Below, piece after piece: positions 39,550 to 41,360 of a DNA stretch of 41,360 nucleotides. The notes below the pieces were generated by a model. It saw only the letters and a list, made by a program, of their open reading frames with translations, had not been told where the DNA came from and did not search any database. Numbering within the stretch: position 1 is the first letter of the stretch; every line of letters begins with the position of its first letter. The position numbers and the translations under genes were made by a program. The DNA lies in the NCBI GenBank assembly GCA_001510275.1, contig LFEY01000002.1, positions 1-41,360 on the forward strand. The letters are read 5' to 3'. This DNA comes from Thaumarchaeota archaeon casp-thauma3 (lineage in GTDB: Archaea; Thermoproteota; Nitrososphaeria; Nitrososphaerales; Nitrosopumilaceae).

Positions 39550-39636
39550 CTAAGTTAAGACTAAACCTTCTTCTAGGTTCAACTCCACAGGGACTCGCCT
39601 ACCATTTTGGGGATAAAAATGGACGCAGATAGGCAT
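39550..39636 (-). CDS. Possible 28-aa ORF overlapping a GC-rich hairpin
   Basis: From an ATG at 39636, four bases after the preceding minus-strand stop, the frame reads MPICVHFYPQNGRRVPVELN and ends at a TAG at 39550. The sequence is protein-like. But the codons are unusually GC-rich for this genome (AGG CGA GTC GTG GAG), and the same bases form the hairpins in the next entry, so a structured RNA could explain them equally well. Confidence 0.35.
   Translation of the reverse strand: MPICVHFYPQNGRRVPVELNLEEGLVLT
39597..39634. ncRNA. GC-rich two-part hairpin
   Basis: GCCTA (39597-39601) pairs with TAGGC (39630-39634); inside it CCATTTT (39602-39608) pairs with AAAATGG (39616-39622). The terminal loop is GGGGATA and the right side has an ACGCAGA bulge. 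On the minus strand a second small hairpin follows (AACCT with AGGTT, about 39564-39579). It stands out from the AT-rich surroundings. It could be a leader element of the membrane-protein gene starting at 39509 or part of a small RNA. Confidence 0.45.
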
Positions 39637-39640
39637 AAAA

Positions 39641-39775
39641 TCATTCAACAAAAATTTGAATTTTGATTTTGTACTTTTTCTCATATGTGTGAATTTTACC
39701 CATTATGATGTGATAGTCTATCCAATGATTTCCTGTTTTTCCAATCTCTTCTAAAAAGTCACTGAATTCCATCAT
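39641..39775 (-). CDS. Small protein (44 aa)
   Basis: ATG at 39775 (two tandem ATGs), TGA at 39641-39643. The peptide reads MMEFSDFLEEIGKTGNHWID, then HIIMGKIHTYEKKYKIKIQ: a helix followed by a strongly strand-like Lys/Ile pattern. Its own box GGTTTAAG lies about 27 nt upstream (minus strand), divergent from the RNA candidate at 39818. Typical codon use. Function unknown, but it looks like a real gene. Confidence 0.6.
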   Translation of the reverse strand: MMEFSDFLEEIGKTGNHWIDYHIIMGKIHTYEKKYKIKIQIFVE

Positions 39776-39817
39776 AAAATAATGTTACATATTAAATTCT
39801 TAAACCAATTTGCATAG

Positions 39818-40070
39818 GCCCTCAAGGTGACTTGTCAAAATTAGTTCAAGGCACTTTATGGTGTTAAATACAAATCAAGGCACTGGGGAGATTTATCAAA
39901 TCACATTGACACTCCAAGGCCGTCAAAGGGTCTTGATAAATTCGGTACTTCGATAAATTGTATAGATAGTAATCAAAACCAAGTAGTTGCCCAATGGCAA
40001 CTCTATGTTCTGATCCCAACACCAACTTTCATACCCCTGATGTTTTTACTAGTTGATTACTATCTGTAGA
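39818..40070 (+). ncRNA. Candidate structured non-coding RNA
   Basis: No ORF fits this 250-nt stretch. Helices, in order: CAAG-GTGA-CTTG with a GNRA-type loop (about 39823-39834); ATTTATCAA (39891-39899) with TTGATAAAT (39933-39941), with inner TTGAC/GTCAA (39906-39910/39922-39926); a 16-bp helix of 39961-39976 with 40053-40068 (15 Watson-Crick pairs and one G-T); and inside its loop AGTTGCC-CAAT-GGCAACT (39985-40002). The 10-mer TCAAGGCACT occurs twice (39846, 39875). A TTAAAT box at 39792 is about 25 nt before the likely start. No match to tRNA, 5S, SRP or RNase P layout was seen. Confidence 0.55.
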
Positions 40071-40189
40071 AAATATTTTGTCGTGACATAAAAATAGTAT
40101 TGAGATAATTATGAACATTTGTTTAATTTACAGATGTATGGGAAACAACACCATTTCTAAAAAAATGTTTGATATTTTTTGATATGTGT

Positions 40190-40290
40190 TTTATATTACG
40201 AATGAGAATTATAATATACATACCTCTCGTATGTACACAGGATTGATAGTCATAATATTAGCAATACGTCAAGTTGGCTATCAATCTATG
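40190..40290 (+). ncRNA. Second hairpin pair with its own promoter box
   Basis: A TTTATATTA box is at 40190-40198. About 25 nt on begins TACATAC-CTCTC-GTATGTA (40217-40235), then GATTGATAGTCA (40241-40252) pairs over 12 bp with 40275-40286 (one G-T pair). No coding frame. It lies upstream of the small gene at 40347, so it may be a leader, or a separate small RNA, or dyad binding sites in DNA. Confidence 0.45.
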
Positions 40291-40346: not shown

Positions 40347-40568
40347 ATGGATCCAGAATCATCTGAGAAAATTGACGAAATAATATTTGAGACTAATGAC
40401 AAAATTGATGCCATTGCAGATGAAATAAGATTGATCAGATTCTCAAAGATGGATGAGAAAGAAAAACAAATTAAACTTGATAAATTACGAAAAGAATTTG
40501 AAAAAGTTATGTATGCAGAAGAAAAATTGGTTGAAAAAGTAATGAAAAACTCTACTGATATTTCATAA
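40347..40568 (+). CDS. Small helical protein (73 aa)
   Basis: The ATG at 40347 (MDPESSEKIDEIIFETNDKI) is preferred over the TTG at 40338 because a TTTATG box is about 25 nt upstream. Highly charged alpha-helical protein (EIRLIRFSKMDEKEKQIKL, KEFEKVMYAEEKLVEKVMK), likely a coiled-coil dimer. No recognised family. It converges with the TFB gene. Confidence 0.6.
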   Translation: MDPESSEKIDEIIFETNDKIDAIADEIRLIRFSKMDEKEKQIKLDKLRKEFEKVMYAEEKLVEKVMKNSTDIS

Positions 40569-40614: not shown

Positions 40615-41360
40615 TTAAATCAATTTAACATATTTTGTAAATTCTGTAAGTCTATTGCGTATGGTTATGCTAGTTATGCCTGATATTTTAGATATTTTTT
40701 GCTGAGACACACTTTCATTATTTTTGATACATGCCATATAGACTACTGTAGCTGCAACTGCATCTGGTTTTTTCCCAGCAACAACTTGTTTTTCTTTTAG
40801 AGTATCAAGGATAAAGATTGCATCTCTTTTTATTTTCTCAGATAGTTCCAGATTATTTGAGAATCTAATTATACTTGATGTTGGATCAGGAACAGAAACT
40901 TGTAGACTTAACTGTTGGAACAATAATCGATAACTTTTTGCTATGCTTTTTCTTCTCTCCTGCATACATTCTGAAATTTCAATTATGGTTCTAGCAGTTC
41001 CCAAATCTCTGCAAGCCGCATAAATACATGCTCCAACAATTCCCTTAACTGTTCTTCCACGTATCAATTTTTTCTCAGATGCTTTTCTGTAAAAATATGC
41101 AGCTCTTTCAATAATTGCATCTGAGAGTGACAGTTTTTCTTTGAGTTTGTTTATTTCTATAAGGGCAGTGGTGAGATTTCTGTGAGCAGTGGTACTATAT
41201 TTACTTCTTGAATCCCACATTCTCATTCTATTTAATGTCCCTTTCATACCATGAGATACAGCCTTACCACTAGAGTCAAAATTAGCTCTTCCAATAATAG
41301 TAGAGAGACCCCCATCATGAATTGTTATGGATATTTTCGGCCCTGTTCTTGAGTTTTTAA
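40615..41360 (-). CDS. tfb: Transcription initiation factor TFB (5' end outside the window)
   Basis: About 248 residues are visible, running to the window edge; the N-terminal zinc ribbon is outside. In frame upstream of the first visible ATG the sequence continues with SRTGPKISITIHDGGLSTII and GRANFDSSGKAVSHGMKG, the B-linker of archaeal TFB, so the visible ATG at 41247 is internal. Two cyclin-like repeats follow: RKASEKKLIRGRTVKGIVGA with CIYAACRDLGTARTI, and EKQVVAGKKPDAVAATVVYMA. The end carries the HTH (SQQKISKISGITSITIRNRL) that reads the BRE next to TATA. TFB recruits RNA polymerase to TBP-bound promoters. These genomes carry several TFB genes. Confidence 0.92.
   Translation of the reverse strand, partial: KNSRTGPKISITIHDGGLSTIIGRANFDSSGKAVSHGMKGTLNRMRMWDSRSKYSTTAHRNLTTALIEINKLKEKLSLSDAIIERAAYFYRKASEKKLIRGRTVKGIVGACIYAACRDLGTARTIIEISECMQERRKSIAKSYRLLFQQLSLQVSVPDPTSSIIRFSNNLELSEKIKRDAIFILDTLKEKQVVAGKKPDAVAATVVYMACIKNNESVSQQKISKISGITSITIRNRLTEFTKYVKLI

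Follow-up and report, generated by a model that had tools for sequence, protein, structure and literature searches.

A structured RNA family of the Nitrosopumilaceae, found standing alone and before the start codon of TFB genes

The window, by which is meant the whole 41,360-nucleotide stretch of DNA that was analysed, almost certainly contains at positions 40067-39961 of its minus strand a stand-alone gene for a three-way-junction RNA of approximately 107 nt. The RNA is preceded by its own promoter, consisting of a TATA box and an upstream element, and belongs to a Nitrosopumilaceae family that lies outside Rfam. Other members of this family, with the same fold and the same promoter, sit directly before the start codon of genes for the general transcription factor TFB. 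A preliminary description of the interval 39818-40070 had proposed a new structured RNA, to be checked by comparison with Rfam and by covariation in relatives, and to this extent it is borne out; the length of about 250 nt and the strand given there are replaced by roughly 107 nt and the minus strand.

Among the Nitrosopumilaceae are some of the ocean's most abundant archaea. Their genomes encode numerous TFB paralogues, and how these are controlled is not understood. An RNA specific to this lineage that both leads the genes of one TFB clade and occurs alone, behind a common promoter, provides a direct and testable handle on the control of alternative TFBs, and the family may regulate transcription itself. 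The preferred reading is that the TFB-linked form acts as a leader or attenuator, and that the stand-alone copies, the window RNA included, act as decoys in trans. Identity and mechanism taken together, this statement has a probability of about 0.5; the mechanism itself stands at approximately even odds against the remaining readings combined. If true, Archaea would here offer one of few examples in which a structured RNA regulates a general transcription factor.

Limits, strand and promoter of the RNA

On the minus strand, the segment 39961-40067 folds with z = -5.08, none of 200 shuffled sequences being equally stable. The left half of the interval (39818-39960) gives z = -1.38, near its shuffles, and all 253 nt folded together yield z = -1.95 and -1.96 on the two strands, which is marginal relative to shuffled sequence. 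In a DNA search of 60 related genomes, the right-hand part is matched in approximately 10 genomes from about 39961 onward, with the fullest matches reaching to about 40131 and at most to about 40136; the right-hand homologous unit is thus the hairpin RNA plus some 65 nt beyond it on the right side. The left half matches separate, unlinked places (L008, L010, L015, L017). Because the fold signal splits at 39960 and homology breaks at the same point, the RNA unit is assigned to 39961-40067, and the left half is unrelated repeat and flanking sequence outside the RNA. The repeated 10-mer TCAAGGCACT that had been counted among the features of the RNA is present at 39846-39855 and 39875-39884, within this left half, and is not part of the RNA. 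The interval is an ORF-poor intergenic stretch, previously described as free of ORFs, and no reading frame reaching 60 aa occurs across it.

To the right of the RNA, the minus strand displays in order the upstream element AAACAAATGTT (40114-40124), the TATA box TTTTTAT (40088-40094) and the stem P1. This is the real promoter, on the minus strand and to the right of the RNA, and it supplants the promoter-like box proposed earlier; a bacterial sigma-70 promoter scan of the window is uninformative, the host being an archaeon. Both elements are common to the family, as revealed by pattern search, spacing across members and consensus. The distance from TATA to P1 is 24-25 nt in 70 of the 88 members scored (from a set of 91), the upstream element begins 29-30 nt before TATA in 61 members, and the consensus of 87 members extends over 50 nt (AAAAATAAACAAATgTTnAnnATTTnnAnAATanTnTTTTTATTTCAT). 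The window copy carries AAACAAATGTT and TATA at this fixed spacing (40124-40088).

From the fixed TATA-to-P1 spacing, transcription of the minus strand is predicted to begin at P1, and the predicted 5′ end accordingly lies at about 40067-40065, with the 3′ end at about 39961 or slightly past it. In 73 of 91 members, P1 is succeeded by a T-run of at least four residues, which would be the likely site of termination. The run is not clear in the window copy, where the 3′ end is uncertain because the T-run after P1 is poor (CAATTTATC).

The same AAACAAATGTT plus TATA promoter also precedes a different RNA-like sequence at two loci (L084, G004:C24 from 8926 on; L096, G016:C183 from 1104 on), which reads AAGGCUGUAGUU..GACGCCUUCG..UAGUGGUUUAGGCAUGC..ACCACUA, has no Rfam match and may represent a further RNA of this regulon. 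Apart from the window, five loci with the promoter pattern were compared with Rfam and returned nothing.

A conserved fold in three subtypes

The window RNA displays the family fold, a P1-P2-P3 three-way junction with a UUGAUUACUAUC-like 3′ strand, and scores 113, 40.1 and 33.7 bits with covariance models R1, R2 and R3, respectively; the plus strand scores 26.4 bits with R1 and 18.7 bits with R3. It is a stand-alone member of type I, in which the helices are P1, P2, P4 and P3 and 98.7% of cells are paired (alignment A7). The core of P1 pairs 40054-40065 with 39964-39975 (98.7% of cells paired, double changes in two pairs), and its 3′ strand, UGAUUACUAUCU, is better conserved than any other sequence in the family. 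The helix of about 16 bp noted previously is this stem, recovered by inverted-repeat search and MFE folding as 39962-39977 paired with 40053-40068. P2 joins 40038-40044 to 40018-40024, with double changes in four of its seven pairs in the type I covariation alignment; in the same alignment P4, which is found in type I only, joins 40011-40016 to 39976-39981 (100% paired, double changes in two of six pairs). P3 is the perfect 7-bp hairpin that had been recognized inside the loop of the long helix (39985-40002); it is 97.7% paired, and in type II five of its nine pairs show double changes. Its loop reads AUUG on the strand predicted to be transcribed and CAAU on the complement, rather than the GNRA tetraloop first reported.

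Compensatory changes exceed those of shuffled alignments in all three subtypes; covariation in relatives was the check that had been proposed. In type I, double changes occur in 9 of 32 pairs, distributed over all four helices, against a shuffle mean of 2.5 (0 of 500 shuffles). Type II has 12 of 31 such pairs and 51 double-change cells, against 14.8 ± 4.0 cells in shuffles (0 of 500), and type III has 11 of 30 pairs (1 of 500) and 19 cells against 8.8 (0 of 500). When the pairing partners are slid by one to three columns, most of the signal is lost in each subtype; the shuffle test ignores relatedness, a concern that the use of three subtypes and the slide controls lessen and do not remove. 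The stand-alone types I and II are therefore under structural selection of their own and are conserved as RNAs. The proposal that the stand-alone copies are solely relics of lost TFB genes is rejected, since type II covaries strongly.

The union of R1, R2 and R3 comprises 130 homologous loci, which are spread over 80 of 250 Nitrosopumilaceae genomes at one to seven per genome, under strict filters that may miss divergent members in such large sets; R2 and R3 match in 61 and 55 of these genomes. No match outside the Nitrosopumilaceae is obtained with R1 over 300 genomes of the order or with R3 over 330. Many complete genomes have no family member, and the RNA family is thus an accessory one. 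Although built from type III only, R3 detects one element at significance in the window (E = 6e-5), namely the window RNA, with the correct strand and ends, and finds many type I and II loci genome-wide, so that the stand-alone form is tied to the leader form by homology. Type I stands alone except for type-I-like leaders such as L044, and type II stands alone in the loci that were read. Apart from clade-level synteny and TFB, no protein neighbors are common to all loci. In G156, a stretch of no more than 2 kb (C1:1351580-1353545; L041, L219) contains three members that differ in subtype.

Comparison with Rfam 15 covariance models, C/D and H/ACA guides and 6S RNA among them, at gathering thresholds gives no hits in the window, and the interval has no tRNA match, consistent with the earlier statement that the sequence resembles no tRNA, 5S, SRP or RNase P RNA and with its assignment to no known family; a scan at relaxed E-value returns only rliD, at 11.2 bits (gathering 50) and outside the RNA. 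An H/ACA guide is not indicated, as no common ACA box lies 3′ of the stem and the members read end in UAUA, UAUU, AAU and the like after P1. A scan with an exact 19-nt 3′ motif retrieves Nitrosopumilus and Nitrosarchaeum records, contigs of Nitrosopumilus sp. Nsub and Nitrosarchaeum sp. BD3 among them, together with scattered unrelated organisms and viruses. The hits to viruses and outside the thaumarchaea receive no score from either R1 or R2, and within this motif search a viral origin or an occurrence outside the Nitrosopumilaceae is rejected.

TFB leaders and a possible regulatory role

Searching with the promoter pattern alone revealed the type III subtype, which resides directly before the start codon of TFB genes; in most type III leaders, P1 ends approximately 10-14 nt before the ATG. 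A TFB query of 95 Nitrosopumilus genomes yields 12 orthologues above the score gap, and all 12 have an RNA leader. Two Nitrosarchaeum TFBs have type I-like leaders (L133, L134), and a TFB of a different clade has a type III leader (L207). At least 15 of the 130 loci directly precede an intact TFB gene, far above random placement among some 2000 genes, a count in which the loci are mostly orthologous, hence not independent, and for which the downstream genes of part of the model hits were read. On the TFB tree, the leader label requires 3 changes, compared with 12.5 in shuffles.

The window has its own TFB gene, at 40615-41358 on the minus strand, whose 5′ part is lost at the contig end (Pfam TFIIB, 8.7e-41). 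Pfam detects TFIIB repeats both in this protein and in a leader-clade protein, and the tree places the window paralogue in the sister clade of the leader-bearing TFBs. The window RNA lies approximately 550 nt downstream of this gene with no TFB after it, and most family members likewise have no TFB directly downstream. In the leader clade, three Nitrosarchaeum TFBs are without a leader, and a type I RNA lies approximately 3.4 kb upstream of them on the same strand.

Several side observations concern these loci. Intact RNA leaders precede decayed-looking TFB genes at L128A/L159 (G013), L211, L222 and L224, and such decay behind an intact leader may be a route to stand-alone copies. Leader-bearing TFBs (L160-L170, L120, L135) appear to be without the first CxxC of the zinc ribbon; in its place they begin with a conserved M-VRVPIVQK-like stretch whose codons come immediately after the RNA. 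A conserved ORF of 72-76 aa, present in the window at 40350-40568 on the plus strand and divergent from the RNA, has homologues beside family members in two genomes: in G013 it is divergent from the TFB-leader locus (L155), and in G156 it lies 47 nt downstream of an RNA (L219).

In the most likely mechanism, the RNA of the leader form and the T-run just before the TFB start codon would constitute an attenuator or a block to translation, the state of which would be set by an RNA-binding protein. The first candidate for this protein would be the TFB, or else some other component of the transcription apparatus. Stand-alone copies, expressed from the same kind of promoter, could then bind the same partner in trans as decoys, and leaders and decoys together would tune the amount or the activity of the alternative TFB. 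This mechanism is preferred because a common partner is the simplest reason for the same fold and promoter to be found before TFB and alone. The analysis establishes the fold and its conservation, the common promoter, the leader position and the homology of the forms; transcription, termination, the binding partner, the regulatory sign and the competition in trans are inferred. That TFB is the direct binding partner is a tentative suggestion, more doubtful than the mechanism as a whole. The same low confidence attaches to the broader proposal of an archaeal RNA control of basal transcription, whereby an alternative TFB would be regulated by its own leader RNA and the dispersed copies would bind TFB, or TFB with polymerase, in trans.

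Most loci stand alone, with convergent or unrelated genes downstream, and syntenic conservation is seen within clades (rsmA-IDH, aldo-keto reductase). Many genomes with stand-alone RNAs also lack the leader-bearing TFB clade, and the link to TFB is therefore unnecessary for retention. Such features would be expected of a trans-acting small RNA family, operating by base-pairing or through an unrelated protein, from which TFB genes merely captured a promoter and terminator with no regulatory meaning. This explanation is conceivable, and it is somewhat unlikely given that a captured promoter hardly accounts for an RNA that is kept in 12 of 12 TFB orthologues, at the same short distance to the ATG and with compensatory changes, or for the leader in another, distinct TFB lineage (L207).

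A small-molecule or ion riboswitch acting on TFB would similarly occupy the 5′ UTR, end in a terminator-like T-run and use a three-way junction with conserved joining sequences, all of which are found here; the stand-alone copies would then be sensor RNAs or decayed leaders. The structural selection on types I and II is incompatible with decayed leaders, no metabolic gene is common downstream, and no alternative pairing was seen, although none was sought in detail, so this explanation appears improbable.

Still less credible is a MITE-like mobile palindrome that spreads as DNA, with P1 as its terminal inverted repeat. Inverted-repeat ends, dispersed and non-syntenic copies at one to seven per genome and a patchy distribution resemble such an element. 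TFIIB genes are, moreover, frequent in thaumarchaeal mobile elements, including integrated ones (PMC6563490), a frequency that may bear on the patchy spread of the RNA. Against this, the termini are not symmetric, as conservation continues for approximately 65 nt outside P1 toward the promoter and not in the opposite direction; P2, P3 and P4 covary in the interior; and copies in the same genome usually differ in subtype instead of being near-identical. The 250-nt plus-strand RNA over 39818-40070 originally envisaged can be set aside, for its arms do pair on both strands, but no homologue spans both halves, the left half is no more stable than expected by chance and the minus strand outscores the plus strand with both R1 and R3.

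Related systems and neighboring elements

The arrangement of a leader element with a stand-alone decoy is known in bacteria, where EutX/Rli55 accompany eut leaders and CsrB/CsrC accompany CsrA-bound leaders. As in these leader-plus-decoy systems, the same structured element of the new family is found in the leaders of mRNAs and also as small RNAs that stand alone; it differs in being archaeal, in its unrelated sequence and fold and in its linkage to a general transcription factor gene. Like 6S RNA and the 7SK/B2 RNAs, it is a small structured RNA tied to the basal transcription machinery, here by gene position only, yet it forms a three-way junction rather than one long bulged hairpin and has no Rfam match. 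The type III form is comparable to autogenous ribosomal-protein leaders in that a fixed, structured leader immediately precedes the gene for a nucleic-acid-binding protein, whereas in the new family the stand-alone copies outnumber the leaders and binding of TFB to the RNA is hypothetical. To our knowledge, no layer of regulation like 6S or CsrB has been described in Archaea, and the leader plus stand-alone decoy arrangement appears to be new there and for a general transcription factor. Searches of the open-access literature found no description of this RNA as a thaumarchaeal ncRNA or as a TFB leader.

The archaeal candidate structured RNAs of a 104-motif survey (PMC2864571) rest on covariation evidence like that for the present family. 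As far as is known, these candidates are now Rfam families; no Rfam family matches the window. Another structured ncRNA of marine archaea with no assigned function is Tan1, an abundant 229-nt RNA of marine group II Euryarchaeota; the new family belongs to another phylum, is half as long and has a different context (PMC5069720).

Other elements were observed around the RNA. A second inverted repeat, of 12 bp with a 22-nt spacer (GATTGATAGTCA / TGGCTATCAATC, 92% complementary), lies at 40241-40286, within the intergenic stretch that holds the RNA and on the upstream side of its promoter. On the other side, a 44-aa ORF at 39641-39775 of the minus strand (MMEFSDFLEEIGKTGNHWIDYHIIMGKIHTYEKKYKIKIQIFVE) is 86% identical to its counterpart in G033 (L008) and has no Pfam match. 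At 39575-39639, also on the minus strand, is a dispersed repeat of approximately 65 bp (GCCTATCTGCGTCCATTTTTATCCCC...GTTGAACCT), with four copies in its own genome and more in relatives; its 3′ part resembles a tRNA T-arm, and ARAGORN identifies no tRNA. Short segments of the left half, 39817-39855 and 39886-39917 (the 10-mer TCAAGGCACT included), recur unlinked in other Nitrosopumilus genomes, and at one such locus (L017) left-half segments adjoin the 65-bp repeat in reversed order.
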